A stretch of 64,000 nucleotides of DNA from Rhizophagus irregularis (Eukaryota > Glomeromycota > Glomeromycetes > Glomerales > Glomeraceae): NCBI RefSeq assembly GCF_026210795.1, contig NC_089459.1:2604001-2668000 (forward strand), in the 5' to 3' direction. Shown in pieces: positions 3,121-50,596 of the stretch. A model generated the notes under the pieces. It was not told the origin of the DNA and made no database searches. It saw nothing but the letters and a program-made list of their open reading frames with translations. The translations under genes and the position numbers were made by a program. Positions within the stretch are counted from its first letter, which is position 1. Each line of letters opens with the position of its first letter.

Positions 3121-3479
3121 ATTATAAATTACTTACAATAATTTTTTTTTTTAAAGACTACCCAAAATAAAATCCTATTTAAAACAGTATATCATTTCTA
3201 TTCCTGCAGATTTTCCTATTGTTAGCATTTTAAAATCTGATAATAATGCATCAATATCAAATAATATTGCACATCTAATTCCCATTCTATATATATATAT
3301 ATATATATATATTTGGTCTATTACATGTTTTGCTTAACAGTTGTGAATCAGTCTTTCTTGTTTTTGGTTATTTTTTAATCAGCTTTGTTTAACAATTTTT
3401 GATGCTAAAAAAAACTTGCGGCTAAGCCAAAACCTTGGAGAATTAATTTATTAATGTATCTAGCAAGTTCCGGATGGAA

Positions 3480-4515
3480 ACTTATAAAGAATATTATAGT
3501 AGAAAGGTTTGGCAATACAAAAATTATTTGGATATATAATGTTTTTTGATTTACTTGATAATCTTATTCCAGCAATCCTGAATATCTATACGGTTCTTTT
3601 TCGAAATAATAAATTTGATGAATATGTTGATACAATATTTCATCTATGGTGTATGATGAGAAGGTTCCAAAGACATAATTATGATAAAATTCTTCTTGCC
3701 TTTTTGTTTGATGTGTATTATTGGCAATCAATTAACCATCCTATCATCAAAACCTTAAAAAATAATTTGATAAGTATGTTATTGAAAATTTTAACAGTCT
3801 TTTATGAAGACATACCACAGCAAAAGTTTCTTCAAGTAAATCCTTTAGACGTGATGCTCTATTTATTGATAATTTTCAAAATGAAAATTTATTTGCTACA
3901 TCATTCGTACCCAAAAAGAGACTACCCATATAAAAAAAAAAGATTTAAATGAAATGATTAAAAGAACTGCTCTTTTTTTATTGGACTTTTTTGATGAGAT
4001 CTGGAAAAATAATGGAAAAGTAGAAAAAAAATGGAGAGAAAAAGAAACAAAAAACCTCATTATTATTTTACATCCATTCCTATAAGTTTTCCTTTGGGTG
4101 CTTTACCTCTTGGATACCATTTTCCTGTACCTCCAAATATGAAAAAGTTTTGTGATAAAAACTTTTGCAGAAATTCAACAAATAAAGAGGTGAAGTTTTG
4201 ATATGTGGACATGCATATCATGAAGAATGTTTAGGTTTAAAGTGTGAACATTGCTATAAATACTTAGATAAATTTATTGATAAATTAACAAAACCATATA
4301 ATCAGAGATTGCACTTAGAAGAAACTCAAATAGAATCGGATATTAATGAAGAAATGAATGAAGATAGTTGTGAACTTGAAGTTATAAATCAAAAAAAGTT
4401 GAGACCGATTTTAAAAAAAGAATCTTGGATAATGTTTAAAAACATTAAAAGTATTGTATTAAATTTTTTACTAATAATAATATTTTTAGTTTACAAATCA
4501 AATTCTCTTCACTAA
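3480..4515 (+). pseudogene. Frameshifted gene ending in a RING-like Cys/His motif
   Basis: Coding-like sequence runs through at least three frames. 3509-3952 is open for 147 codons, with FDLLDNLIPAILNIYTVLF near its start. Another frame carries on from about 3940 (KDLNEMIKRTALFLLDFFDE) to a stop near 4083, a third covers about 4088-4200 (GALPLGYHFPVPP), and 4201-4515 reads ICGHAYHEECLGLKCEHCYK near its start. The pattern C-x-H-x2-H-x2-C-x5-C-x2-C resembles the second half of a RING/RING-H2 zinc finger; that is all that can be recognised. The last ~30 codons turn hydrophobic and A/T-rich and may not be coding. The several frameshifts make this a pseudogene, probably of a multicopy family. Confidence 0.55.
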
Positions 4516-4740
4516 TTTTCTGAACGTATTGTAATAAAAAAAAATTTTTAGTTGAAATTTTATTGGCCAGTGAATGTTGATCATCACGTGAAAATAAACC
4601 AATAAGTGGATTTTGCACGCAAGTTTTGCATATGGGCCGATTTGACGCATCATACCAAATAGTAACCAAGTGACATTTAAGTGTCACCTGATCACGTGCA
4701 GTCACGAGTTCAAAAACATTAAGTATCTGAGGGACTTAGT

Positions 4741-4787
4741 TTTTTTTGTGTCAAAAATTTATTTGTTACCCCCAGTGACACAAAAAA
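4741..4787. repeat. Hairpin with ~12 bp arms
   Basis: TTTTTTTGTGTCA at 4741-4753 pairs with TGACACAAAAAA at 4776-4787 across a 22 nt loop. It lies just outside the large inverted repeat. It could be a remnant of a small inverted-repeat element; nothing more can be said. Confidence 0.5.
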
Positions 4788-4889
4788 CCGCGCGGGATGC
4801 GTGGATTTTATCAAATGACATCAAATGATATTAAATGATATGAAAAAGTGACCAAGATTTCTCATTTATTAAACTCTTTACTTTCCAAG

Positions 4890-6562
4890 ATTTCTCGTTT
4901 ATTTAACTCCTTACTTTCCTTATTGAAAGAACTGACAGAATATTTTATATTTTTTTCTTTATCGATTCTCAGGAAAAAAAGTGAGTAGCATGTGACGACA
5001 TGGCGTTTACCAACCGCTAATCTGATTTTGCACCAATAATAGTTTTTCTGCTTGGTTCCCAAAAGATGAATGAAACAAGATTTTCTCAATCCTATTTTCC
5101 GCAGCACTTTACCAATCGAAGTGAAGAAAGTAAATGGCAAAAAAGTAAAGAAAATGATATATATGAGCTCGGACGCGCTTTATTTCCTATGGAACTTCTA
5201 TGTCAAACTTCTCATCAAGAAAGTAACTCTCGAGAGACAAAGGGAATATCTCTTACGAAACCTGGTAGTTCTGAAGAGACAGTTCATGAAGATAGAACTA
5301 AGAAAAGCATTCCATCCATTTATGATAAACCTTACATACAACAAAATAAAGAGATTCAGGCCCAGAGCTTCAGTTTGCCTATCACTAGCGAAACTGCCAG
5401 AAATAACGAGATTAAATGTAAAAGAAATAAAAGCGGAGATAGCAAAGATGAGGTCGGAGAATATGATGATATTTCAAGGGGTAAATCGTGCCCTAATAGA
5501 GCAAGAATTGAGTCTATGCAAGCATCTATGGGGAAATTATGCAGGATCGGTGTCGTGGGAAGCGATGAAGGGACAAAATGGACATCATGCCGATTTGTAC
5601 AGCCATGCTATAGAATTGGAAGAGATTGTACTGAAATACCTTTACATAATGTGTCAGAGAGTCATGAATGTTGCAACAATTCATCCATGATAATCGAGAT
5701 TATTGCGAGTGAATCCAACCGTCACCAACTTGCAAAATCTGTTCATCAAGGGCCCTGTGAAGTATCAAATCTTACTGAATGTATGAAGGTAAAAGCGGGT
5801 TATGGAGAAGATCTTTACGATGTTCGAAATTTTGGTTTTAACCATATCATACTTGTTGGGAAGCGAGAATATGGAATAACGTTTTTAGATTGCTATGGTC
5901 GAGTTTTTGAGTTAGACAGGATGTCTGATGCACTGTGGCCACTTGGGAATTCTTTGGAAGAGGTGGCAACAAAACCCTGGACTGGCGAGGTGGCATGGGA
6001 TGTTGATGAAGATGGGGTTGTTTTTGAATGGGAGTATTGTATGTGTACAAATCTTATTTTTTTAACATAATTTTGTATTAACTTTTCTTCTCTCTTCCAG
6101 ATACTGAAGCTGAACGTACTACACATGATTTTAAACGTGCGGATGATAAGAAACCCTGGAAACTTGAGGGAGTCTATAAAGAAATCCCGGACAAGAACAA
6201 AAGTAAAAAAAAGAAAAGCAAGAAAAGCAAGAAAAGCAAGAAAAACAGCACGATTTTTTAATTTTTAAACTTCTATAATCACAATTTTACATATTTTTTC
6301 TCTATTATTGGCTCTTACGATTATTATGTAAAATACATCTTTTTCACTTTACCTTTAACCACGCAATATCACTTTTAGTATTTGCTTTACATTGTTACCG
6401 ATACCCGGAACACCACCGGCAGCACTTTAATTTATAATTTGCAGATCTCTAGTTTATGCTAAATTTTTCACTATCTTTGCGCATGCCTATAATGTTTCTA
6501 TAATTTTATATCAATTTCTGTATCTAAAATTTGATTACCTCCAAAAAAAAAGATTCGATATA
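4890..6562 (+). repeat. Left arm of a ~1.67 kb long inverted repeat
   Basis: This arm is matched in reverse complement by about 11695-13365. Anchors include the AGCAGAAAAACTA-type block near 5040 versus 13205, the coding sequence in between, the splice junctions, the Lys-rich tail, and GATTACCTCC near 6535 versus 11710. Arm midpoints imply a centre at about 9128 and a ~5.1 kb loop. Divergence is substantial (by eye perhaps 15%, with indels), so the arms are old or have not been converted. The arms may be the long terminal inverted repeats of a MULE or an inverted segmental duplication. Confidence 0.85.
5070..6261 (+). pseudogene. Left-arm copy of a gene with a deaminase-like segment (motif lost) and a conserved C-terminal module
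   Basis: Module 1 (5070-5690, 206 codons from ATG) corresponds to the deaminase-like frame of the right-arm copy. The equivalents of its C-A-E and C-x2-C motifs read Y-A-G and Y-I-M-C here, so a zinc-dependent active site would be lost. It also lacks about 20 residues present in the right copy before the SADxLxxLW segment. Module 2 is in another frame and stays open from 5066 to 6038. Its likely real part is from about 5780, with GFNHIILVGKREYGITFLD and TKPWTGEVAWDVDEDG. An intron at 6039-6100 (GTATGT...CCAG) joins it in frame to 6101-6261, which encodes a Lys/Ser-rich basic tail ending in STIF. Module 1 and module 2 are offset by a frame, so either an undetected intron or a frameshift separates them. 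Module 2 alone could still be expressed. Confidence 0.55.
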
Positions 6563-6851
6563 ATACAATAAAGCAGTTTACTGTTGTCTTAGGTAAAAAT
6601 CTCTGTTATTTATTTGATTGTTATAAAATATAATTTTTTCTTAAAATCTTTTTTATTTACAAGTTGCCATCAATTTGTATATTAAAAGAAAAGCAAATGC
6701 TGTGTGGTGAAAAGGTATATAGAAGTCTACTAATAAAAAACCAGTAAAAATGGCATATATATATATAAATGTAATAAATATTAATCTAAATAAATTTATT
6801 TAATATACTATATTTTTATGTTATTTATTATTTATTATTTTATTATTCAAA

Positions 6852-6967
6852 TCACCGGGGGTGATCATCACCGTTGGCCAGAATTATCAATTTTTACCGG
6901 CACTATATTTTTTTAATGCTGGTCGATCATCATAATTTCAGTCACTGGTGATCATCACCTCCGGTGA
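6852..6967. mobile_element. 116 bp element with 21 bp terminal inverted repeats
   Basis: TCACCGGGGGTGATCATCAC at 6852 is matched by the reverse complement of the segment ending at 6967 (19 of 21 positions by eye). The inside has further partial copies of the GATCATCA motif. No ORF is present. It is probably a tiny MITE-like element in the loop between the inverted-repeat arms. Confidence 0.6.
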
Positions 6968-7149
6968 TAGTTGGAAAAATTCTTTATTAAATGTCTTTTT
7001 TTTCTTTAGTCCTTTGCACGGCACGCACTCAAGGTACGTTTTCCTTCTTGCATTTTGTTTACTACTAACTTTATTTCGTTTTTTTAGGTCCTTTAGTTCT
7101 TTCGGTTTTGCAATTAAGGTATATATGTCCAGCACTACTATATAGCCGT

Positions 7150-7600
7150 TTCTTATTTTTTATTTCATTCTTATATTTCGTTTCTTACATTTTGGATTTC
7201 ACTCTTTTAGATCTTTCAGTTCTTCTCTGCAACTACTAAGGTATGTTTTTTATTTTTTTTTGTTTTCGTTTATTTATTACATGTAATTTCCGTTTCCTAC
7301 TAACTTTATTTCTTCTTTTATTTATGGGTTTGTGGTCCTCTGTTTACCTTCTCCATTTTTTGTTCTTTTTTCGTCTCTTCATTTTTTCATTTTTTTGCTT
7401 TTTTTATTCTTTCCTTCCTTCGTTTTTTCCGTTGTTCTTTATTTTCTCTTCGTTCCTTTCATTTTTTTTTGTTCCCACTTCGTCTCTTTTGTTCCTTTAC
7501 ACTTCTCTTCATTCCTTTCATTTTATTTCCCACTTCATCTTTTTTATTCCTTTACACTACTTTTATTCTTTTTATTCCCCTTTGCTCCATTTCGTAAATG
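7150..7600 (+). repeat. Long pyrimidine-rich tract
   Basis: About 450 bp is almost entirely T and C on the + strand, in imperfect repeats such as TTCCTTTCATTTT. Open frames through it translate to Phe/Leu/Ser-only peptides and are not credible genes. It lies downstream of the MULE gene's 3' end. Confidence 0.7.
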
Positions 7601-7700
7601 TAAAGGAAGTATTAAGACAAAAATTAATTAGTAAAATTATCAAAATAAGATTGTGTATTTGAGAAATACACTGAAGAATCTATATTTGTATTATAACTTA

Positions 7701-7799
7701 AAGGCGGGTATGTTGAAGGCGGGTATGTTGAAGGCGAGCGTATTGAAGGGTATGTTAAGGACGCGTGTGTTGAAGGGTGTGTTGAAGGCAGGTGTGAAG
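7701..7799 (+). repeat. 15 bp minisatellite
   Basis: AAGGCGGGTATGTTG at 7701-7715 is repeated exactly at 7716-7730, then in degenerate form to about 7799. The unit is markedly G-rich for this region. It sits about 100 bp beyond the MULE stop codon. Confidence 0.75.
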
Positions 7800-7900
7800 G
7801 AAAATATGTATTTGAATTATATATTGAAAGGAAATGTGTGGTAGAATGAGGTAGATGTGTAATCATTGAAGGATGCATTGAAGGTAGTAAAGTAGTTGAA

Positions 7901-10900
7901 TTATAATGTACCACGTTTTACTTTGTGAATTTGATCAGTTTTTCGTTTTGCAATAGACGGTGTGTTCAGTACTGTATTATTTTCTCGAAGTATTCTACTT
8001 GGTTTGCGGCGGTTTGCAGCAGGTTTTGGAGGAGCTCCTGTTAAAGGGTTCAAATTTCTTTGACTCAACTCATTTGGACGGAAAGGATCAATCTCAACTT
8101 TACAATCTTGATCAATTGTGGTAAAAAAAATCATATTTCCTTGATAAAAAAGAATATATTAATTAGATGATAATTTAAATTTTAAATTATTAAATATTTA
8201 ATTACCTTTTTCATTATATTCTTTGACAATTTCTTGAAAAGCTACCTCAATATCTCCTTGATAAATATTATAATTCTTGAGCTCTGGTGGTAAAACTCTT
8301 TGCTTATTTTTGAAATAAGCTACTAATTTTTCTTTTGTATCTTTTATTACATTATCATGGTTTTGAAGTGATGTTATAAAAATTCTTGCGGCATGGCAAT
8401 GCTTGCATACATTACGAAATGATCCATTCCAAATAAAGTCAAAACAATTAAAACATTCACAAGTTAAAATATTTGCTATATAATAATCGTGACGTTCTTG
8501 AATGTTATAATTCTTATTTAATTGTTTAAATAACGGGCCCAACTTTTCTATAACACTTTCAGAATTCAGTGGCTGATGATCGTATGGTGATATCACATCA
8601 CAGTTATGACTTTTCTTTACATAATAAAAATCAGAATTATCTGATTTTTCCACCATGCCCAATAAAAAATACAATCTACCACAATTTAACCTTCTGAGCA
8701 TATCTTGTGTTATTTTTGGAAATAAATCTTGCTATGAATTTTAATAAAAATAAATAAAATTAAATTGTTATATAAGTAAAAAAAAGAGAGAGAATACTTA
8801 AATATAAAACCAACCTGTTCTACTGATTGCATATTAAAAGCTGTAACTAATCCTGCTTCATAAATTAATATACCTGTATTTTCTTCTGTGATATTCTCAT
8901 GTATCAACTTCACTCCATATAAACGTTCAACAAATGTTAAGACAGTTTGTTTACCAGAATATGTAGCTTCAATAGTTCTATTGATTCTTTCAGTGTAATT
9001 GTTAGTTGTCCACAGTGGTTCATCATTAATTGGTAATCTACCAGCATCAATAAATTGGATACACCACTCTTCACATATGCAATTTTTCACATCATCATTT
9101 TTAATTTTTTCTTTTTTTACATTATCCATGTTTAAATTATCAATAAATGCATTAAATAAAGTTGTCATAAATAATGCATCATCTTTTGAACGACATCTAC
9201 CTATTAATTTAAATCCAAGAGCAATTGGATAACTATAAATAAAATCAATAAATTTATCATTAAAGTTATTAAAGTTATTAATCAATTATTAAGCAAATTA
9301 ATAACATACCGTAAAGATTGATTAATATTCCAATTTTTAAGATTTTCACCAAAAGTTTGCATGATATGAAACCAGCAAAGAATAGTACCGGATAATAAAC
9401 CATCTACACCTAATTTAGTTGGTCTATGTTTATCGATCATAGCAACAGGATTCCATGGATTTATATTTGAACAAGGTGTAATTCTTCGGAAACCAGTATT
9501 ATTTGGCAAATTTTCATAATACAGTGACACCTCTATAAGTGCACCCTCTATAAGTGCACGCACTATATAAATTCTCTTTAAGTGCACGGTGGGCCTGGTC
9601 CCAACTTATAAGAGCTCTTAATATTTTACTCTCTATAAATGCACACCCTCTCTAAGTGCACATTCTACTATTTTTTTACTATGGTCCCAAGGAGGGTGCA
9701 CTTAGAGAGGTGTCACTGTACCATGTATGATCACAATCAACTCGGTTACATGGTTATTCTTTATTGATGAAATTGCCAATCTAATTGTATGATTATTTTC
9801 TTTATTACTCATGCCTAAATTAAATAAAATAAAAATATTTTGAATTTTAAATTAAATATACAGATTAATAGATGTATTATATTATTACATACCAAATGCA
9901 ATTGGAGTAGCAAAACCAGCATTATTCTTTGCTATAATAGATAAAATTGGTGCATGGTCAAGATTTAAATCATACTTGCCATCAATCCCTATGCAAACTT
10001 ATCCATAGTCTCGTGCATTCTTTAAAAAATTCATCTGATAATGTTAATTGATAGAATCTTTGAGGAGAATCTTCTGAAAAAGATAGGTTTGGTTGTTAAT
10101 AATGTAAAATATACCCTTTTATTTTAGTATTTCAGTTATAAGAATGTAGAATGGTCCAAAGACCAGCATTGTCTTTAAATCTTTTATCATCATGGGCAAT
10201 TAATTGTTTCAATTTATCATTTGTACAAATAACTTTTTGACTATTTAATGCATTAAAAAGAGTATTTTCATCAGCACCATTGATTGATACTAAAAGTTTA
10301 GCTTTTATTTCTTTTGTACTCATATAGTCAGCTCTTCTACTGATAAGAATTTTATTTCTAACATTTCGCAGAAAATTAAATCTTTGAACTTTTGGTGTAG
10401 AATTAAGCAACATACTTTGTGGTACATGATTTCCTTGAATGGTTATTTTTAAAGGATGCGATTTAGTAAGAGAAGTAATACGAACTTCACTTTTAACTCG
10501 TACATTGCACAAATGCATATCATTGTAATTTTTAAGTCCATTAGAAATTGAGAATTTATACAGCCTTTCTTGCAATTTCCGATCCCTCCACAAGCTCTTT
10601 GACAGGTATTGCCATTACCAGCACAATACATAATCCATGACCAACATAATTTATCCTTTTTTTTTAGATTTATTTGTTTTAGAAGTTCATTCCCTTTTGA
10701 TGTTAATGTTAATACATCATCTATTCTGTTTGTAGATTTCGTTTCATTAGTTCTAGTTGTCCATTCAGCAAAATCTACAGCTCCTTTAACCCTTTGAACA
10801 TTAATAATTCCTTCTTTTACAAGGCCTGAAGTATATAATCTACTTAAGCATTTTAAACGTCTATCCTTCAATAAAGGGTGGTTTGCCAAGTACCATTCTG

Positions 10901-10976
10901 AAATTCGTCCAAATGGTACATTTACTGAGTTTTCTGCATCATTATTATATTGTATGTTTGATAAATAGTCTTGCAT
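7901..10976 (-). pseudogene. Mutator-like (MULE) transposase gene with C-terminal SWIM-like zinc motif, broken
   Basis: The reading starts at 10976 and ends at a TAA at 7901. Recognisable parts in order are: an N-terminal region with a Cys cluster (CxxxxxxC...CQRAC, about 10600-10670); GIDGKYDLNLDHAPIL near 9960, the start of the MULE catalytic domain; GTILCWFHIMQTFGENL near 9350-9400, the C/W-x-F/W-H block; TNNYTERINRTIEATYSGKQ near 8960-9010; and a SWIM-like C-x-C...C-x2-C-H near 8380-8470. The tail is basic and Pro-rich. Plausible introns include 9819-9893 (donor GTATGTAA) and one following LR at about 9305. Lesions: a 1 nt frameshift near 10590, a stop and frameshift near 9995-10020, and a MITE at 9520-9720. 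MULE transposases cut and paste DNA; this copy should be inactive. It lies in the loop of the long inverted repeat. Confidence 0.8.
9520..9720. mobile_element. 197 bp MITE with CAGTG termini and TA target duplication
   Basis: The element begins CAGTGACACCTCTATAAGTG at 9522 and ends with CACTG at 9718. The terminal inverted repeats are about 27 bp and a TA flanks each side (9520-9521 and 9719-9720). The CAGTG ends plus TA duplication are typical of pogo/Tigger-type Tc1-mariner MITEs. Internal copies of TAAGTGCAC occur. Removing the element and one TA restores an uninterrupted frame (HTWYYENLPNNTGF) in the MULE gene, which proves the insertion site. Confidence 0.93.
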
Positions 10977-11235
10977 TTTTAGTGTAAAAATTGTAAAAAC
11001 TGCGTAAAAAACATGGAAATATGGGAAATTTACACAGTTAATCGGTCACGTGATTTCAGAAGTTACGAAGAAAATCACGTAAAAAAAATATAAGAAAAAA
11101 TAGGTTTGAAAGATATTAATTTTAAAAGGTTGTGTATAAAAGATATAGAAAAAGATTATTTCAAGAAACAAAATAGAATATTTTGTAAAAAACAAAAAAA
11201 AAAATAAAGAGTATAAGTTCGAGAAAAAAATTTAA

Positions 11236-11393
11236 TCTATCAAGAAATGTACCAAATTTTGTGTTACGCTTTTAATCTATCAAGAAAATTGCATATTTAA
11301 GTTTCACAACGAAATCTATCAAGAAAATTGCATAATTAGGTTTCACAACGAAATATATCAAGAAGTATACCGCAGACCTATCAAGATTGACGG
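11236..11393 (+). repeat. ~39-40 bp tandem repeat
   Basis: Units begin TCTATCAAGAAA at 11236, 11276 and 11315, and a degenerate TATATCAAGAAG at 11354. The middle two share GTTTCACAACGAAA. The array lies in the loop of the long inverted repeat, upstream of the MULE start. Confidence 0.8.
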
Positions 11394-11694
11394 GATGATG
11401 ATTCCGGGGTCACGATCTCTTGATATTTATGTAAAACGTTTGAGTATAAAAATCAATTTTTACATTATAAAAAAAAAAATACCCGAACAGTAAAAACATT
11501 TTTCTGTGCAAAAAACAACGAAATAACGTAATACTTGAAATGATTGAGAAAATCCGTTATTATAGTTCTTGTTCATGGTTCTTTTACTACGAGTTCAGCC
11601 GTGATCAATGACCTGAAAAATTGATAAAGTTGCAGTGTACCAAAAAAATAAATTATTGTTTATGTGCCAATTTTGTAAATGTGTTCATTATATC

Positions 11695-13365
11695 GAATCT
11701 TTTTTTTGGAGGTAATCAAATTTTAGATACAGAAATTGATTTAAATAGAAACATTATTCGCATGCGCAAAGATAGTGAAAAATTTAGCATAAGCTAGAGA
11801 TCTGCAAATTGTAACTTATTTGTAAAGTAGATACTAAAAGTGATATTGCGTGGGAAGTGAAAAGATGTATTTTACATAAAATCGTGAAAGCCAATGATAG
11901 AGAAAAAAAATATGTAAAATTGGGATCATAGAAGTTTATGAAATTAAAAAATCGTGCTGTTTTTCTTGCTTTTCTTGCTTTTCCTCAAGTTTCCGGGATT
12001 TCGGGATAATCCTGACGTATAAAATCACGTTCAGCTTCAGTATCTGAAAGAGAGAAGATTAGTTATACAAAATTATGTTAAAAAAATAAACAAGATTTGT
12101 ACACATACAATACTCGAATTCAAAAATAACTCCATCGTCATCAATATCCCATGCCACCTCGCCAGTCCAGGGTTTTGTTGTCACCTCTTCCAAATAGTTC
12201 CCAAGTGGCCCATCAGACATCTTGTCTAATTCAAAAACTCGACCATAAAAATCTAAAAAAATTATTACAAACTCTCGCTTCCCAACAAGTATGATATAGT
12301 TAAAGCCAAGATTTTTTGTATTCATAAGACTTGATACTTCACAGGGCCCTTGATTAACAGAAACTGCAAGTTGGTGACAGTTGGATTCACTCGTAATAAT
12401 CTCGATTACCATGGATGAATTGTTGCAACACCCTTGAGACTCAATGAGTGTGCTACCCTCTGACACATTATGCAAAGATCTCTGGATTTCATTTTTTCTA
12501 ATTCTATAGCATGGCTGTACAAATCGACATGATGTCCATTTTGTCCCTTCATCGCTTCCCACGGCACCGATTCCGCACAATTTCCCCACGGGTGCTTGCA
12601 TTGATCCTGTTCTTGCGCTGTTAGGGAACTGATTACCCCGCTGATATCATGATTCTCTGACCTCATATCTGCTACCTTCGCTTTTATTTCTTTTACATTT
12701 AATCTCGTTATATTTGGTGGTTTCGAGGGTGATAACGCGACGGAAGCTCCGGCCATGAAACTTTTTATTTCGTTGTTTTTGATCGTGTGGGTTAGGTTTA
12801 ACATACATGGACGGAATTCCTTTCTTCTTTCTAGCTTCTTGAATTGTTTCTGCAAGACTTTCAGTTTCCGAATTAAGTATTCCCTTTGTTTCACGACAGT
12901 TGCTTTTCTGATTGGAAGCTTGGTATAAAAACTCCACAAAAGACAAAGCACGTCTGCGCTTGTATAAACATATACTGGCGGATAAGGGCCGCAATGCACA
13001 AGCTTTCCCTCGGTAATAATTTCTATTACTTTCTCGCCATTTGCTTCCGTTACTTTTGTCGGTACAGTGCTGCGGAAAATAGGATTGTTAAAAAAAACGA
13101 ATTCCTTTTCTCTCTATAAAATTATATCTAGATATCTACCTCAGGGGTTTCAAAAAGTCTTTTACGATTTTTTTTATCCATTTTTTAGGTGGGTGGTCCA
13201 ACCAAGCAGAAAAACTATTGTTGGTGCAAAAATCAGGCAATCAGTTGGTGAATGTCACGTCATCACGTGTTACTTACCTTTTTTTCCTGGGAATCATAAA
13301 AATGTAGATTAAGGAAAAAGATAAAATAATCCGTTAGTTTTTTCAATAAGAAAAATAAATGCGAA
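11695..13365 (-). repeat. Right arm of the ~1.67 kb long inverted repeat
   Basis: Reverse-complement partner of about 4890-6562. The homology includes non-coding flanks on both sides of the gene, the intron and its splice sites, so it is a DNA-level repeat and not just two related genes. The outer boundary lies next to the AATCAGTAAAA minisatellite at 13411-13562. Confidence 0.85.
11985..13090 (-). pseudogene. Right-arm gene copy, with deaminase-like C-A-E / C-x2-C motifs
   Basis: Module 1 is open from at least 12999 to 12406, and upstream codons to about 13080 are also open. It reads VYTSADVLCLLWSFY near the start, a basic helical region, NITRLNVKEIKAKVADMRSE, then WGNCAESVPWEAM and, 31 residues after the C-A-E, CIMC. 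A [H/C]-A-E followed by C-x2-C is the zinc and catalytic signature of the cytidine-deaminase-like superfamily; assignment from this alone is inference. Module 2 is in another frame (12109-12601), with GFNYIILVGKREF and TKPWTGEVAWDIDDDG. Donor GTATGT follows 12109 and the acceptor precedes 12043; exon 2 then stops early at 11985, losing most of the Lys-rich tail kept in the left arm. No in-frame ATG was found at the expected start of module 1, so this copy is also probably defective or incompletely modelled. Confidence 0.55.
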
Positions 13366-13410
13366 ATCGTAGAGTTAAATATCTTTTTATAGAAAGAAAT
13401 TTATAATTAA

Positions 13411-16623: not shown

Positions 16624-17465
16624 TAAAGAAACAAATTCTCAAATTAGGATATCGTATCCTGAGTAAAATAAGCTATTACCAATTCGAGTAAATTTTTTAA
16701 AAAGTTAGTGGCTGATTGCATATTACGTAGAAGTGATATTTATTAAAAGAATGAATGGATGTTTATAAAAAGCATAAACATTGTCTTCTGATAAATTTTA
16801 ACTTAAAAAATCCATTATATGTCGATAGTTATTTAATACATATATTAAATATATGTACAAAATATTAAAGCAAACAAGAATACCATAAAAAGAAATAAAC
16901 TAAAAAACATTGGCTAATTTTTTTGATTATAAAAGGAAATTAATATGAATTCTTGTTTTTGATTGTTTTTTTGTGAGATACGATTGTTGTTAAAATGAAA
17001 ATACTTTTTAAATTTATTATTGTTTTTTTTTTTATTAATCATTTATGGAAATTTATATTTGTGAATATATTAAGAATTATAAAAATTTTTACCAAAGATT
17101 TCAAAGATTTGATGATTAATTAATTACTAGTATCAAATTTATTACAATGTTTTAAAAAAAATCGATTATAATCATTGCAAACAAAGTACAGTATAATATG
17201 TTTTATCTTACAATATCGGTTAATAAGCGGTGATATATTTATTTTTTTTTTTTAGCGTGGCAAAATTAATTTTCCTTTTGTTTAGGCAGATTGCTTTTTC
17301 AGTGTACAAACAAAAAGTATCCGAAATGTTACATGGCTTGCACCTGCTTTTTTTTAATATGACGAAAAACCAAATATATTAAAGGATAAATAAATAATAC
17401 ATCATAAACAGAATAAATCAATTGTTTGATATTTTTTCATTGTTCTTTTATGATATGTCATACAA

Positions 17466-17660
17466 CACTACCAATACCAATATTTGGTATATTAGTATAT
17501 TGGTATATTGATATATTGGTATATATGATTTATTGGTATATTTGATATATTGATATATTGGTATATTAGTTAGTATATTGGTATATACCAATATATCAAA
17601 TACTAATATACCAATATACGGCTAATATACCAATTACCATATACCAAAATATTACTTCCC
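17466..17660. repeat. TTGGTATA / TATACCAA palindromic cluster
   Basis: Many copies of TTGGTATAT on one side (to about 17585) and of ATATACCAA on the other form a large imperfect A/T palindrome of about 190 bp. It is followed by an (ATT)n stretch. It could extrude as a cruciform. Confidence 0.75.
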
Positions 17661-17987
17661 CCAATATTACCAAATACCAATATTATTAATATTATTAATA
17701 TTATTATTGTTGATAGTGTTGATAGGGTAATATCGCACAACGTAAAATGTTTTTTTTAAAAAAAACGGAGAAATTAATTGTATTTTGCCTCGGATAAACA
17801 ACACATCATTTGTATAAATATAGTATAATAACTGATTATTACAATAAAATAAATTGTTTTCCGTTATCAAATATAATCTTGATTGAGGCTTATATTGGGT
17901 CTTATCTAGCAATATCTATTTTCCAAATTTTATATTATGAATTTTTTTTCTGTTAAGGAAAAAAAAGTTACTGTGATTTTTTTTTTA

Positions 17988-18190
17988 TCGAATAAAATAT
18001 CGAATAAAATATCGAATAAAATATTGAATAAAATATTGAATAAAATATTGAGAATGAGATATTGAATAAAATATCGAATAAAATATTGAGAATGAAATAT
18101 CGAATAAGATATCGAATAAAATATTGAATAAAATATCGAATAAAATATCGAATAAATATCGAATAAATATAATAAATATCGAATAAGTAA
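17988..18190 (+). repeat. 12 bp ATCGAATAAAAT minisatellite
   Basis: About fifteen degenerate copies of ATCGAATAAAAT or ATTGAATAAAAT in tandem. The reverse strand is open across it but yields only an Ile/Phe/Asp repeat peptide. Confidence 0.85.
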
Positions 18191-20756
18191 AATATAATAA
18201 ATATAATATAATCATTTAGTCATTCTCTTGATTATAGAGAAATTTGAGGTTAGATTAAGCAATTGTACATGCTTATATTGTACATATATGAAACCCTACA
18301 AACCACAGTAACACTACGGAAACATAGTTACATAATGTTCTATAAAGACATTTTCATCAGTTTATATAATTTTGCATATTTTTCTTATTGACAATTTTTT
18401 TAAAACACCATTTTAATATTTTTTTCCTTTTATTCCCAAACATTTTTACATATTCTCAGGGTAAAAGAAATCCTTTTTTTTTTTCTCCTAATTTTTTTAT
18501 TTATTTGTTTGATGTGTGGGATTTCTCAAAATAGTATGGGCGTATTAGCAGTAGATCATGTGCTCAAACACGAAACAAAAAATTTTCTTTTAATTGATAA
18601 TTGAATATTTAATTACTATTATTATTTATGCAAGACATTACAGACAAATTAATACAATTAATCCGTTAATTTTAAAACATTTTCTTTGTTATGTATCGCG
18701 TGGATGATGATCAGTTTCCTGTCGGTTAAACCTAAACTATACGGAATAATTTTGGTGACGTAATATAAATTGCATTAATTTTCTGATATAAATTAGGGAT
18801 TTAAAGTATGATTCACATTACAATGATTATTTTTTTTAAAAAGTTTTAAAAACATAATACACGAAACTAGAAGAAAGAAAGAAAACTTTGTTATTTGAAA
18901 TTTATTTGAAATTTTTCGGATATTTGAAAATATTTTGTATCATAAACAAAAGAACAAATTAATTAATTACAATGCGTCAGCTAAAAAGAAAGTTTTAAAA
19001 CTTATTATTATTATTGTTGTTTAATTATTATTTATAAAAACATTTATTAAATTTTTATTTTATCCAATCAAAAGAAGAGATTTTATAAGAATAAAGAAAT
19101 GTCCTTGTCAAAGTTTCCTTGTCAAAAAAGCTTTGACTTTTTATAATTTGTAATTAGTATTACCTTAACATACATGCTAAGTGGCACACACCATTTTTTT
19201 ATGCGTTTCAGTTGTGTGGGATTGACACTCTTATTTGATAAATAGTGTGACGATACATACGATACATCAGATGATAATAAAAAATTCCTTTTTATTTGAC
19301 ACGTTATGTGAGAGGGTATATAAGTTACACAATTGTTTTTCTGATTTTTTAAGGTAAGATTAAAGTGTTTCATACAAGAAAGTTTTTGGCTTCGTAATGT
19401 AACTAATGTATTAAATTTTTTTTTTTTTTTTTTATAGAAAAAAAGAGAGCATTTATCATATTGTTTGTTTTAAAAATGTTAACAATCGAGAAAGCATTTA
19501 ATGAAGATAAAAAATTTCTTCTTCGTTTTCTTCTATGGAATACAAGATTTAAAGATAGAACAATATACGGATGATTTTTATAATTCCCCACAAAAAAAAA
19601 AAAAAAAAAAAAAATATAAGCGAAAAAATCATTTCATTATCTATTGAGTGAGTGGGGCATATTATATATGTCAAGTAAATTAGTACCGAAAAAAATTTTT
19701 TTTTGTATTGTAATGAAATCACCTGTATTCCTAATAAAGAATGGGTGGGTGTAACCTAATAAAATTTTATTTTTTATTATTGTAATATAAAGTTTTTTAA
19801 TATAACTCAGATTAGATAAATCCGCCACACAAACAATAAATAAAAACTTGTCAACGGTAACAAAATAAACAAGGTATTTTAAAAAAAAAAGGTACTCTTT
19901 AAATATATATATATATATATATAAAAAAAAAAAATTTTTTAAATATACAAAGGTTGACTGTAATAACTATTTTAGTTATTTTTAATTGTTTAAAATTTTC
20001 GAACAAAGCAAATGTTAGTTGAATTAAATGTATTAATGTAATGCTTTATGTAGTGTTAGTCGTACTTATTTTGGCATTTTTTTTTTTTTTTTTATATACA
20101 GTAATGCATTTTTATTTTTATGTTAAACTTTAAAAATACCGAAATTTTTTTTTTTTTTATATAGTTGAATGAAATTTATTATATATTTGAAGGTCCTTTG
20201 TTATCGTTATTTAAAAAAAAAAAAAGTTATATAAACTCTAAAATTTTCAACGTTTTCTTTTCAAAAAAAGAATTCTCAATAGAAAAAAAACTATAAAAAA
20301 TATTTAAAGTTTTTTTTTTAAATAACTTTTTTTTTTTTTTTTTTGAGATTTCTTTATTTTTATTTTCCAATATTTTTTTTAGTTTAAAAAAACTTTAGTG
20401 AAAATCTTTCATAATTATTAAAAAAAACCTTAAATTTTTTGTTCGTTGAAATAGCAAAAAAAAAAATTTTTTCTTCTTTTTTTTTTTGCACGAACATTTT
20501 TTTTATCTTTTTCTTTTTTTTTAATTGAATTCTTTCAAATATTTGAAAGAATTTAAAAACGAAAGACCAAAACAAAAGTTTTAACATTCTTGAAAAAAAA
20601 AACCTTTTTTTTCAAACAAAACGAACAAAAAAAAAAATTAATTTTTTGTTCAAACTCGAAATTCAACGCTTTCTCGGAAAAACAAATTCGGAAAATCAAA
20701 TAAATTAAATCAAATTTATTTTTTAAAGCTTTTCAATTTTCTCCGACTTTATAAAA

Positions 20757-32942: not shown

Positions 32943-33255
32943 ATGTCTGCATTATGTCTGTAAATTACGTTCATAAATTACGACCATAAGTTACGTTCAT
33001 AAATTATTTTCATAGATTACGTTCATAAATTATTTTCATAAATTACGTTCTTAAATTAAGTTCAAAAATTACGTTCTTAAATTATGTTCAAATTATGTTC
33101 ATAAGTTACGTTCTTAAATTATGTTCATAAATTATTTTCGTTCTTAAATTATTTTCATAAATTACGTTTTTAAATTATGTTCTTAAATTACATTCTTTAA
33201 ATTACGTTCTTAAAGTACAGTACGTTCTTAATAAATCACGTTCTTAAATTTATTA
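32943..33255 (+). repeat. Degenerate ATTACGTTCATAA / TTCTTAAATT minisatellite
   Basis: About twenty imperfect 14-16 bp units of the type AATTACGTTCATAA, with CATAA replaced by TTAA in the second half. A few isolated copies lie upstream at about 31980-32190. Confidence 0.8.
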
Positions 33256-34154
33256 TAAATTTGGTAAACCGCATAAATTTATTATAATGCAAACCCGTTA
33301 AATGCCGGATGAGTTATTCGTTCCAAGATGGGTGTGCTCGAACAAGATGGGTGCTCGTACTCGCAATTCAATTCCCTATAAAAAAAATTTCTGGAAAAAA
33401 CTCCGATAAATGATCATTTTTCTAGTTTTTATTCCGAAGAAACTCAGACACGGGATCATTTTTCTGAAAAATTTTCTATAGAGATCATGCATTCATTTAG
33501 AAACTCAACCGTCTTAACTTTAACATTATCTACAATCATATAAATTCCATGGCAAAACTTTATAACACTTTTAAGAAAAAAAAAGACCGGATGTCCGGAT
33601 CTACTGCGCCTATACCTAGTTCTAAATGTGTTATACCTATCCTTCAGTTTACGAATATTACATCCATATTCAATTATATCACCCATAAATTCACACTTTT
33701 ACATCTTTGACTCAGTAGATATTAATAATATGCAAAATAATTCAGTACAGACAGATTAAACTATTTTTGGGATTCAATTTCGCTCACGTCCGGGTCTAAT
33801 GTATATGATCACAATTGGATATATATAGTTATCTATGATAATGTTGGCAATAAATTTAATAATAAATTTTATAATTAAACATTTCTTATAAAATAAAAAA
33901 TAAAAAATGGATAAACTCCGATAAAGGAGAAACTCCGATAAATGATCATTTTTTAGACATGTGGTTGCATCCATGAACCGAGGACAATGGGACAAAATCA
34001 TTGTCCCTGCATGTCAAACTATCAAACGATTAAACGATTTTAGCTAAACTCGCTTGTCAGGACTCAGGACAAAAAACAACAGCCGAACAACCAAGAACAA
34101 ATACTTTATTACGTAAATTATTGATTTGTTAACCCGTGACGCAATCTATCCTAA

Positions 34155-37200: not shown

Positions 37201-38175
37201 TTTTTTGTTTACCTTACAATACAAAGGTTAACCGCATTATTTATTTGCCATACGTTTTACCTTAAATTACCTTAAATCTAAAAAAGAAAATTATCGGGTT
37301 GATTCTTATGGAGAATTCCTCTTTTATTTTCGCGAAAAAACCAGAATGATATGATAAATTAATTGAGGTAAAATATTTTAATAAAGCACAACATGTAAAC
37401 AATGAGATAAGATATTGTCTGGGTTCGTCAAATTTGTTCAATCTTTATTCGGGTTCTTTATTCCGGTTATTTAAGATGATTGATAGTGATTATATTGTGT
37501 ACATCCTTTTTTTTAAGTGAATCTTTATAAAAGAGAATTCATCCTTTTTAATTGGTCTCCTTTTTTATCAGTTGATATAGAAAAATGACAATGTGTGATT
37601 ATTAATTGGATCGTCTTTTGATTCATTTTTACGGTATTATTAAAAAATATATATACCTTATGTATATAATATATACATATATATTTGTATATATATACTG
37701 ATATACAATTATATAATTTTTAATTTAAATCGATTTAATAATGAGGAAAATAAATAAAAATGTATGATAATTAAATGCGTGGCATTTACTTTTTAATCTA
37801 TTTAAATAATGGGGGGGAAAAGATTTAATTAATTCAAAAAAAAAAAAATGCAATTTTTTTTTTATACGTAAATATAACGTAATTATAATTAATATACGCA
37901 AGTACAATATACAATCGCAAGTACAATATACAATTATACGATATATAATACATTGGTGATAAATTAAAATAACATGCGTGTATTTAATTAAAACTTTCAC
38001 GGAATTTTTATTGATCCGTGAAACTCCGTTTGAACGAATTATCTATAAACTCTATCAATATTCATTGATCCGTTCGGAAAGTTCAATTACATGTACAGCG
38101 ACATGAAGGAAAAAAATTTTTTTTTAATTTATTTTATACATTTATTTAGTTTTATTTAATTTTTTATATTATATA

Positions 38176-38206
<31 letters not shown>

Positions 38207-40474
38207 TTATTATATAGTATATAGTATATAGTATAGTATTTTTTTTTATTTTTTTATTTTATTTTATTTTATTTTATTTATTTTTGGTTTTATTAAACAT
38301 CAAAAGTACTTAATTTGGAGATGAAAGAAGATCGGATAAAAAAAACTTTGAAAATCATCACACGTTAGAGAATACAGGTGTGTAACGTACATATGTCTTG
38401 ATACATGGATATTTATTTTTAGTATTTAAAAAAACTAGATTAGGTAAACATACAAACAATTTAAACAATTTAATCGATAAACATGGGTTAATTGTACAGG
38501 GGCAATTAATCTCAATCCCAAATTAAGTAATACATTCAGGCGGTCATTTTTTTCCGAAACATTTTTAACGGGCCTTATTATTTACATTTAGGAAAAAGTT
38601 TTTCTATACGACTTTTTATGATTCTTTTCTTATCTTCTAATGATAGATATATTAAAAAAAGTTTTTATTTGTAATGTAATAAACCTTCTTTTTTTTTTTA
38701 TGATTTATTTTTTTTTATTTTTACATTTTTTTTACATTTTTTTTTTTCTCCTCTTTCGAATTTCCGAATAAAGTTAAAGAGAAAATTTCCATTGTTAACT
38801 TAGAAATTTCATTTAAATATTAGTAGACTAATTAGAAAAACAAAATAACCATAAAGGTTCTTATTTATTTAATTATTTTTTTTTTTTATATATTTCGGTT
38901 ATTTACGGTTACTCTGCCACAAAAAAAATTATATTAGATAAACGCCTTGTCGTATAACCGATTGATTTCCCTTTCGAAAATTAATGAAGCGAATGAATCA
39001 ATTTTGATTTATTATTGCGAAATATGGACATTTAATAAATATAAAAAAAAAATTTTTTTTTTTTTTTTCTCTTCATATATTAAAAAAGAGCTATTCAATG
39101 GGTTCATACGTTGTATAAAAAAAGCGAAGTAAATTGGTTTAAAAACAAAAAAAAAAAAAAGTGAGCAAGTAAAGTTTTAAGGGGTGAAATTTTTTTTTTT
39201 TAAAAAGAAATGTAAGAGAAATGTCGAGAATCTAACTAAATTTGGGCAGATTGGATAATTTATTTTTTTTCAGGGTATTAAAAAAGTTTTTTTTTTAGGG
39301 AGGGAGGGTGTGATCTTTAAGAAGGTTGTTAAAAAAACGATTTACTATTTTTTTTTTTTGATCGACAATTTCGACAATCATAGCCCCCCCCCCGGCTTAC
39401 ATCATTTGCATTATTACATTATTTACATTATTTTACCAAAATAATTTTTTTTTTTTATATGTACATATGTACATAAAATTGGATAAAAAGTTGAATATCA
39501 CAAAATAAATTCTTTGATAACTATATAAAGTAAATTATGTGATAAAACTGAAAAGTATTTTAATTTTTAAAATAAAAAAAATATATATATTATTATTATT
39601 GTTTGTGTTCCGTTTCTCACCTGTTCTTTGAGCAAGCAGCTTTGTTTATTACCTGCCAATCAAAATTCTCAAATAATTAAAATAGGACCAAAATAAAAAT
39701 CACTGTAAAAAAGCTATAACATTTTAGTAATGAGGTTTAACATAAATAAATTTGATTTTGTATACAAGTTTTTAATATAAATAATCGGATAATACTTTGA
39801 CGTTAGGAACTTTAAAGAATCGAAAAAAAAAAACAAATTTAAATAAAAATATTTTTTTTTTTTTCGGTTTAAAAAAATTTTTTATTTATAAAGATAAGGT
39901 AGCTTTCATTTTCTCTCTCTTTCTCTTTTTTTTTTTCTTCTTTTAAAAAAAAAATTATCATACATTTTTTTTTTTACAAGTCTTTTCTCCTCCAAAAACA
40001 CCTTTCCTCAAAAAACCTTTTTTTTTTTTTCAAAAAAAAAAAAACGAAAGTAAAGAAGAAAACAAAAAATTTTTGTTGAAGAAAAAAAAATTGTAAAGAT
40101 TTCACGTCATTAAATCCAAAGATTGGATTATTTACGATCATTTTTCAGTATTTATTCTCGTACGTTCGTCTCTATTATATTTATTATATTTGGAAATAAA
40201 TATTTTATTTATTTATTTATTTTTCTTCTTTTTTTTAAAAAAAAAAATTCTTTTTTTTTTTGTTGTGTTATCATTATTTTTCTTTCAACAATTTAGTATA
40301 CGGAGAAAAGCTTTTCTTTTTAATAATTTATTTTTTTTCCCGCCTGTTCCTTTATCTCACTCGGTGATATTCACAAATTTACCATATATATCATTTTATA
40401 TAATACATATATATTATATATATATATATTATTTTTGTAGTTTTGTCACCTATTAAAAAAAAAAATATTTCAAA
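34266..40474. other. A+T-rich gene desert and upstream region of the HMG-box gene
   Basis: No credible gene was seen. It contains a (CACACATA)n stretch near 35475, long (TTTTATT)n near 38150-38285, and poly-A/poly-T runs throughout. The last ~500 bp is rich in alternating poly-pyrimidine and poly-purine blocks, similar to the upstream region of the gene at 20757, and probably holds the promoter and 5' UTR of the HMG gene. Confidence 0.5.
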
Positions 40475-43604: not shown

Positions 43605-44390
43605 CAACGTTTCAACTTTTCAATGTCTCAAAATGGCTCAAATGTTTCAAATGTTTCAAAGTCTCAAATATATTAAAAATTTTTTAACATTTTTTTACTA
43701 AAACAAAGAGATTATTTTTTCGTAAAGAACAAAGTATCTTGATGATATCAATGTCATAATGTCACAATGTAATGTCACAATGTTTCAATATCTCATGTTT
43801 CAAAGTAATAAAGTTTATAAAGTTTGAACTTTAATATTTAATTAATTTTACTACTATGAACTTTATAGTATGAACTTTATTAATTTTAATTAGTATGAGC
43901 CTTATTAATTTTGTTAGTACGAGCTTATTAATTTTATTAGTACGAGATTTATTAATTTTATTAGTACGAGCTTTATTAATTTTATTTAAATTTCTTAATC
44001 ATATTAATTCGTTAAATCATTAAATCGTATATATTCGTTAAATCATTAAATCGTGTATATTCGTTAAATCGTATATATTCGTTAAATCATTAAATTGTAT
44101 ATATTCATTAAATCGTTAAATTGTATATATTCGTTAAATCGTTAAATTGTATATATTAGTTAAATCGTATATATTCGTCAAATTACTTTATCATAATATA
44201 TTCGTTAACATGTTAATTTTATTAAATTTCTTAATTATATTAATTCGATATATTCGTTAGTCAATTTATAATTCGTTGTATTTGTTGTCTATTGTGTCTA
44301 TTGTGTATTTGTCGTCTATTACTTAATCATATATATCCGTTCTTATATATCCATTATCATATATATATACTTCGTCAATTCAACTCGTTG
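43605..44390 (+). repeat. Series of short tandem-repeat families
   Basis: Consecutive degenerate arrays: (ATGTTTCAA)n near 43605-43675 and 43760-43805; TAGTACGAGCTTTATTAATT near 43860-43990; and CGTTAAATCATTAAATCGTA near 44010-44190. Boundaries are soft. Confidence 0.75.
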
Positions 44391-49500: not shown

Positions 49501-50596
49501 AAAAAAAATTTTAATCATTATTGGTATTCACAAATGTATATTCGGGTATTACGTTTGATGTGAGGTAATCCTTATATAAATACATATTATGCATATATAG
49601 TTTTATTTTATTTTATTTTATTTTATAATATTTATATTAATATTTTTTTATTTTTATTTTTTTTTATTTTTATTAATTATTATTATTATTATTAATTATT
49701 ATTATTGATTTTTTTTATTTTTATTTTTATATTTTTTATATTTTTATATTTTTATATTTTTATATTTTTGTATTTTTGTATTTTTGTATTTTTGTAATTT
49801 ATTTTATTCTTCTTTTTTCTTTAATTTTCTTTCTTTTTCCTTTTCTTTTTCTGTTTCTTTGTTATTTTTTGTTATTTTTTTTGTTATTTTTTTTTTTAGC
49901 GCGACAAAAACAAATAATTAACAAGCATGATTATTTAGAATATCGTGGAATATCATGTATGAGATTTCGTGATTTGTTGATATTTGTTGATGTTCTTCTT
50001 TTATTTTATTTTATTTTTTTTTTTGTTACCTTACTACCCAAAAAAACGATTCTTTTAATTAAAAAACTTTATTTTCATTTGATATTTGATATTATTATGC
50101 GTATTTTTTTTTTAGTCTAAAATAAATAAATAATTAAAAAAAAAAAATAAAGGGATCAAAAACGGAAAGATGAAAAGATTATCTCTTTTTTTTTTTTGTA
50201 ATCATTAATTATTAAAATTATTAATAATTTGTCTCTCTCCCCTTAAAAAAAAATTTTTTTTTTTTTTAAATTATCATATTTAGAATGTACCGTACTGTAA
50301 CTGCTGTACATACGTATAGGATATTACAGTATTTATTGGATCGATCTTTTAAATCAACACATAACATATCAATATTGCTATAAAGAAAATCTATAACATA
50401 TTTGGTTTTAAGAAAGAATCATGCTTTATATTTAAAATTATATTTAAAATTGATTATTTATATATAATAGATTATCAAACGTTGGTTTGAAACTTAAAAA
50501 AAGAATTTGTTCGTTTGATAATTTTATTATAATTAATAAATCGGAATTATCAATTTTATTAATATAAAAAAAGAATGATTAATAATGCACTGAGTA

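Follow-up and report, generated by a model that had tools for sequence, protein, structure and literature searches.

In the nuclear genomes of eukaryotes, genes seldom overlap over long distances on the same strand. The described systems closest to the gene family considered here come from bacteria, fission yeast and humans. In bacterial polymorphic toxin systems deaminase-like and SUKH-like proteins are encoded together, and the deaminase families YwqJ, XOO2897 and BURPS668_1122 are tabulated among the toxins paired with SUKH immunity proteins (PMC3482391). The wtf meiotic drivers of fission yeast form a multicopy family in which one gene gives two products, and these differ only in their N-terminal tails through alternative transcription start (PMC10721834). 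The APOBEC3A deaminase gene gives a second protein from a shifted frame, A3Alt; the A3Alt proteins are described as mitochondrial and proapoptotic and belong to a single human gene (PMC8424220). Here we describe a dispersed gene family of the fungus Rhizophagus irregularis in which around 200 codons are kept open in two reading frames, and which is therefore not ordinary. Two of its members face each other as the inverted arms, A and B, of a structure in the window, by which we mean the whole AT-rich stretch of 64,000 nt analysed (C31:2604001-2668000 in our contig handles; contig NC_089459.1 of GCF_026210795.1); the genome searched comprises 146.7 Mb in 32 contigs. Family members elsewhere are named after their contigs.

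This arm gene differs from the bacterial systems in its overlapping frames, its introns, its large family and its weak domain matches (PMC3482391). It resembles wtf in being a multicopy fungal family in which one gene would give two products, here proposed to harm and to protect, but these products would have DNA in common and no amino acids, in contrast to the wtf proteins as described (PMC10721834). APOBEC3A is alike in that a deaminase gene has another protein encoded in a shifted frame, whereas the A3Alt proteins are not described as an immunity-like partner (PMC8424220). Among the top-ranked results in the open-licence PMC literature there was no prior report of a dual-frame deaminase/SUKH gene.

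In arm A (4885-6573, plus strand) the stretches 5021-6070 and 5070-5690 are both open. We call the deaminase-like frame, 5070-5690 in arm A, frame 1 and the one lying one base back frame 2. The pair recurs with an identical shift in arm B (11485-13365 including its 3' flank, minus strand) and in diverged paralogues whose proteins are 24-53% identical to the first row of the comparison, and in at least ten diverged members exon 2, about 650 nt long, can be read through in two frames. Examples of intact members are C29:3285500-3287100 and C15:1813100-1814400. Frame 1 of arm A (5070-5687, plus strand) has 206 open codons and carries GNYAG for GNCAE and LYIMC for PCxxC. Its frame 2 begins with the ATG at 5066, continues open as far as a predicted intron at 6039-6100 (main part 5066-6038, plus strand, with a conserved C-terminal domain), and ends in a last predicted exon (6101-6261, plus strand) with a lysine-rich tail and a stop at 6259-6261. 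Exon 1 of arm A is mostly deleted and frame 2 is intact; the C4 relative of arm A also has an intact frame 2, and a TAA in frame 1. In arm B, on the minus strand, frame 1 is open over 252 residues from predicted exon 0 (13278-13297, an ATG followed by a GTAAGT donor) through predicted exon 1 (13140-13214, AWLDHPPKKWIKKIVKDFLKPL, with the frame 2 ATG at 13181) to exon 2 (12406-13069), which contains GNCAE...LCIMC, L replacing the P of PCxxC, and stops after HPW. The second frame of arm B is broken by a TGA (12647-12649, minus strand). Arm A is decayed in frame 1 and keeps frame 2, and arm B is the reverse and keeps frame 1; such separate decay fits two separate products, although two loci are few.

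The exon 1 pattern W..(K/R)...(D/E)F..P is found in frame 1 of seven of the ten members with flank (B, C31 at 2.50 Mb, C21, C29, C4b, C30b and C30a). In all seven the nucleotide A precedes the exon 1 TGG codon, which creates an ATG for frame 2, and the context of this ATG has A at -3 in six of the seven printed rows and G at +4 in every one.

Frame 2 is held open beyond what frame 1 explains. We shuffled synonymous codons along the entire open reading frame (ORF) of frame 1, keeping protein and codon use, because within the doubly open stretch alone the absence of stops holds by construction. Ten members entered the test, namely those fetched whose frame 1 ORF reached 150 codons or more, minus C4b, which is nearly identical to C29; too short were C17 (102 codons), C4 (134), C30a (127), C22 (115), C16 (90), C18 (72) and C9 (none). 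Frame 2 contained 10 stops where the shuffles expect 93.1, nine of them no further in than 60 nt, at the predicted start of the exon or close to it, and the tenth being the TGA of arm B. The third frame, used as a control, had 236 against 214.1 expected, and on the reverse strand the three frames had 120 against 120 (a value that the test itself sets), 58 against 57.2, and 86 where 117.1 were expected. Ten other ORFs of at least 150 codons in the window showed 296 stops in the same relative frame, with 295.9 expected. A count that is independent of the fetched set gave stop-free frames 1 of at least 180 codons at 15 places, and at 11 of these, two of them nearly identical, frame 2 is likewise free of stops over at least 320 codons; of the remaining four, arm B has two frame 2 stops, C29:1058377 has one, C2:5946 consists of two stop-free pieces and C3:348277 was unlisted.

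Both frames are thus kept open in diverged members, and purifying selection acts on frame 1 and, within frame 2, on the C-terminal domain, while the frame 2 residues of the overlap are nearly free. Judged from changes that alter frame 2, the ratio for frame 1 is 0.40-0.67, and in all 15 pairs its interval lies below 1; judged from changes that alter frame 1, the ratio for frame 2 in the overlap is 0.57-1.27. Past the overlap, in the C-terminal part, the ratio for frame 2 is 0.44-0.99, with 8 of 12 pairs having an interval below 1, the pairs throughout being not independent of one another. Between arm A and its C4 relative, 13 of 34 changes are silent in frame 2 (22.7% expected, p 0.04) and 7 of 34 in frame 1 (23.3% expected, p 0.84), a sample too small to lean on. 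We rejected frame 2 as the sole coding frame, given that frame 1 is under selection, keeps a conserved motif and has upstream exons consistent with splicing.

The zinc site of the nucleic acid/nucleotide deaminase superfamily is marked by two motif parts, [HC]xE and PCxxC, that a strand separates. The full motif GNC[AS]E...PCxxC is present in 8 of 11 frame 1 rows; arm A has lost it, arm B has LC and C21b is cut. The cytidine deaminase profile TIGR01354 matched frame 1 of C30b, one of the 11 members, exactly over the motif (E 0.0028). The C-terminal domain of frame 2 has the consensus FGFNHIIxIGE...FLDCYGRVF...VLWPLGDS, and in C21, one of 12 members, it matched SUKH-3 (PF14433) at E 4.6e-4 over positions 84-141 of 146; a whole-genome search with SUKH-3 found the C21 locus only, again in frame 2. 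Another single member of the 12, C15, matched the zf-like PF04071 in frame 2 at residues 105-155, within the overlap (29.0 bits, cut-off 27, E 1e-6). Elsewhere in the genome the OTT_1508 deaminase profile had 35 matches, 26 of them over the cut-off and several in ORFs of more than 400 aa; none lay at the listed loci of the arm gene family. The XOO_2897 profile gave no match in the genome, but its controls were silent too.

The explanation that we favour, giving it as a whole slightly better than even chances, combines tail-to-tail paralogues with a gene family that has overlapping reading frames. A single spliced transcript would serve both proteins. Frame 1, running through exons 0, 1 and 2 as predicted in arm B, would encode a deaminase-like protein of about 250 residues with a conserved end point and would start at the exon 0 ATG, and frame 2 would be reached by leaky scanning, beginning with the ATG made by the A and the conserved TGG of exon 1; it stays open through exon 2 and runs into the conserved C-terminal domain. 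Frame 1 may be an effector and frame 2 its inhibitor, in the manner of bacterial deaminase toxins and SUKH immunity proteins.

Several observations weigh against this explanation. The fetched members were partly picked for open frames and are paralogues, not independent samples, and one of the three reverse frames is also short of stops (86 against 117.1), although far more weakly than frame 2 (10 against 93). Exons 0 and 1 are predictions from splice-like sites, and three of the ten members looked at (C16, C18 and C21b) showed no exon 1 pattern. In the overlap, the interval for frame 2 is below 1 in only 3 of 15 pairs. On the side of the domains, the TIGR01354 match reaches 17.9 bits with a cut-off of 113.65, none of the 11 frame 1 members had a Pfam deaminase match with E of 1 or less, and PDB searches gave no useful match; a genome search with the YwqJ profile was also without a match, on which ground frame 1 was rejected as a YwqJ deaminase. 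The SUKH-3 match, at 20.8 bits, is below its cut-off of 23, and the sole Pfam match to frame 2 that exceeds its cut-off is to a different domain, the zf-like PF04071, and may reflect a real small domain or chance. Both domain names are weak and, judged by these profile matches, are leads rather than memberships.

Two other readings of the double frame have to be set beside the favoured one. It is unlikely that there is one fusion protein, in which, close to the stop of frame 1, a frameshift or unusual splicing would link this frame to the C-terminal domain of frame 2. That stop does have a conserved place (A.I.PW), adjoining a frame 2 Met in most members, the C-terminal domain follows it directly, and the weak constraint on frame 2 residues upstream fits, because that part would be unused; but a fusion leaves the nearly stop-free frame 2 over some 200 upstream codons (10 stops seen, 93 expected) unexplained. 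Among the ten members with a known frame 1 end, a GT comes right after the adjoining ATG in only five (B, C21, C17b, C17 and C29c) and is missing in the other five (A, C29, C30b, C22b and C15), and an intron at the frame 1 stop was rejected on this count. The nearly free evolution of frame 2 residues in the overlap would also suit a reading in which the only genuine coding parts are frame 1 and a separate downstream ORF whose Met lies at the frame 1 stop, the upstream open frame 2 being a side effect of constraint on codons or motifs. We consider this distinctly unlikely, given that shuffles which keep the frame 1 protein and codon use still expect 93 stops, the ten other ORFs of the window have no stop deficit, and the ATG in question is absent from C22b and C15.

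The paralogue part of the favoured explanation concerns the arms themselves, which the first-pass annotation had described as an 8.5-kb palindrome, unusual at this size, with arms that match over flanks, coding parts and intron. The match was confirmed by self-comparison of the window, in which arm A (around 4890-6564) shows inverted similarity to arm B (around 11687-13365), the top pieces being 12320-12922 against 5780-5204 (E 2.7e-99, 78%) and 12027-12314 against 6117-5827 (E 9.8e-94, 88%). A gapped alignment runs from around 4920/13370 to 6564/11687 and spans the 5' flank, the exons, a small intron and the 3' flank; identity by block is 73-95% and indels are numerous, so that the palindrome is old. 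It is also ordinary, consisting of two old members of a dispersed family placed tail to tail.

A protein search for the arm gene family matched 57 stretches genome-wide. Arm A is homologous to arm B and to a copy at C4:5230528-5232187, with 93% identity to the latter (92.7% across 4885-6573, 92-100% by block), and this match extends outward across 3346-4612, a gene that we call RING-like after weak Pfam matches below the cut-off and that arm B lacks. The positions 4890 and 13365, proposed as outer ends, are therefore not element ends; on the inner side, the 3' flank of arm B matches its closest copy, at C31:2499164-2505829 and about 110 kb off, as far as 11485. Compared with arm B, that copy contains two insertions, one of about 1.7 kb and one of about 3.4 kb. 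Several family members are on C31, and remoter ones are on C17, C18, C21, C16 and numerous other contigs. In every block, identity between arms A and B exceeds that between the C4 copy and arm B by at most 3 points, which indicates neither a sister duplication nor conversion, and gene conversion between the arms was rejected for this reason. Sites common to arms A and B against the C4 copy number 0-7 per block, and those common to arm A and the C4 copy against arm B number 2-39.

Judged by comparison with these other copies, A and B are separate paralogues that ended up tail to tail, and there is no sign of the 8.5 kb moving as a single unit. Two old members of a dispersed family would have come to lie tail to tail, a transposon would have inserted between them and lost one of its ends, and further repeats would have come in. 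The spacer begins with about 420 nt, followed by a dispersed C/T-rich repeat (6994-7595, plus strand) that is truncated at 7595 against a decayed transposon (7596-11390, minus strand), then by about 95 nt and the flank of arm B. A search with the whole spacer gave 68 matches, mostly within 6994-7595, with the best 40 of 838 first-look candidates scored. The transposon contains pieces of a transposase-like gene at around 7901-11045; its end at 11390 is intact and the opposite end is lost. The intact end bears a terminal repeat (11231-11390, plus strand) of 39-nt tandem units with CTATCAAGA, a 97% copy of which on C14 stops exactly at 11390. On C19 the terminal repeat lies, in inverted orientation, 3' of a related transposase gene, and C29 has the same inverted 3' placement as judged from a 25-nt match only. 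The transposase-like gene matched 34 stretches of the genome, including that of the window, which is the only one within 20 kb of any of the 57 arm gene matches.

Both earlier proposals for the structure can be weighed on this evidence. A gene-carrying Mutator-like element (MULE) with 1.67-kb terminal inverted repeats would account for inverted arms on both sides of a transposase-like gene, but the transposon has its own terminal repeat inside the loop, which led us to reject the arms as its terminal repeats or as MULE ends: they lie outside the transposon end at 11390, and their copies elsewhere have other ends, do not share common ends with this structure and come without the transposon. A target duplication of the 8-11 nt expected for a MULE was also missing at the proposed borders, given that 4861-4895 and 13356-13400 share no word of 7 or more bases, no wider stretch having been compared. 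We regard this proposal as extremely improbable. A transposase-like gene is indeed present in the loop, as first claimed, but its MULE identity was not confirmed: the label rests on motifs only, the Pfam MULE profile PF10551 had no match in the scanned pieces of the gene, which is interrupted and was scanned as pieces only, and the window was not among the 150 stretches from a genome search with PF10551 in which 150 of 407 candidates were scored. The spacer resembles Mutator-like elements in having a transposase-like gene and a terminal repeat, and differs from them in that the scanned pieces lack a MULE profile match, one end is lost and the arms are not its ends. The second proposal, one inverted segmental duplication at the locus that a transposon invaded later, came closer. 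Flanks common to both arms besides the exons, and the several family members on C31, speak for it. However, arm A is 93% identical to the C4 copy including an upstream gene that arm B lacks, A and B are no closer than the C4 copy and B, and the closest copy of B is about 110 kb off; the arms are not mutual nearest relatives, and a single inverted duplication at the locus is therefore not shown. We consider it improbable.

Further insertions and repeats accompany the structure. A 186-nt insertion at 4615-4800 is missing from the C4 copy and is bordered by a 9-nt duplication, GTGGATTTT, at 4606-4614 and 4801-4809. Inside the transposase gene, a short inverted-repeat element (9520-9720) has TA at both ends (TACAGTGACACC...GGTGTCACTGTA) and is 98-100% identical to four genomic copies (one each on C2 and C20, two on C4), which suggests that it was probably mobile recently. 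Outside the arms, 2414-2741 is a self-inverted repeat, 87% identical to its own reverse complement over about 330 nt, with a weaker one at 17463-17721, and tandem or low-complexity arrays lie at 17986-18216, 32951-33261, 38116-38296, 43855-44259 and 49572-49898.

Gene-finding programs tend to keep whichever frame is longer, and the deaminase-like frame may therefore be missing from annotations. We tentatively suggest, while considering it doubtful, that the arm genes form a multicopy family in the nuclear genome whose single transcript encodes a deaminase effector in one frame and, overprinted on it in another, its immunity protein, a eukaryotic killer and protector made from bacterial toxin-immunity parts, neither of which could easily be lost or copied alone. 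Under that same suggestion, and with the same doubt attached to the two taken jointly, decayed members such as A and B would become protector-only or effector-only. The at least ten diverged copies with about 650 nt open in both frames are natural replicates for studying how an overlap persists. If the deaminase and SUKH assignments are true, a single fungal gene would hold a linked effector and protector, which would bear on allorecognition and selfish genes.

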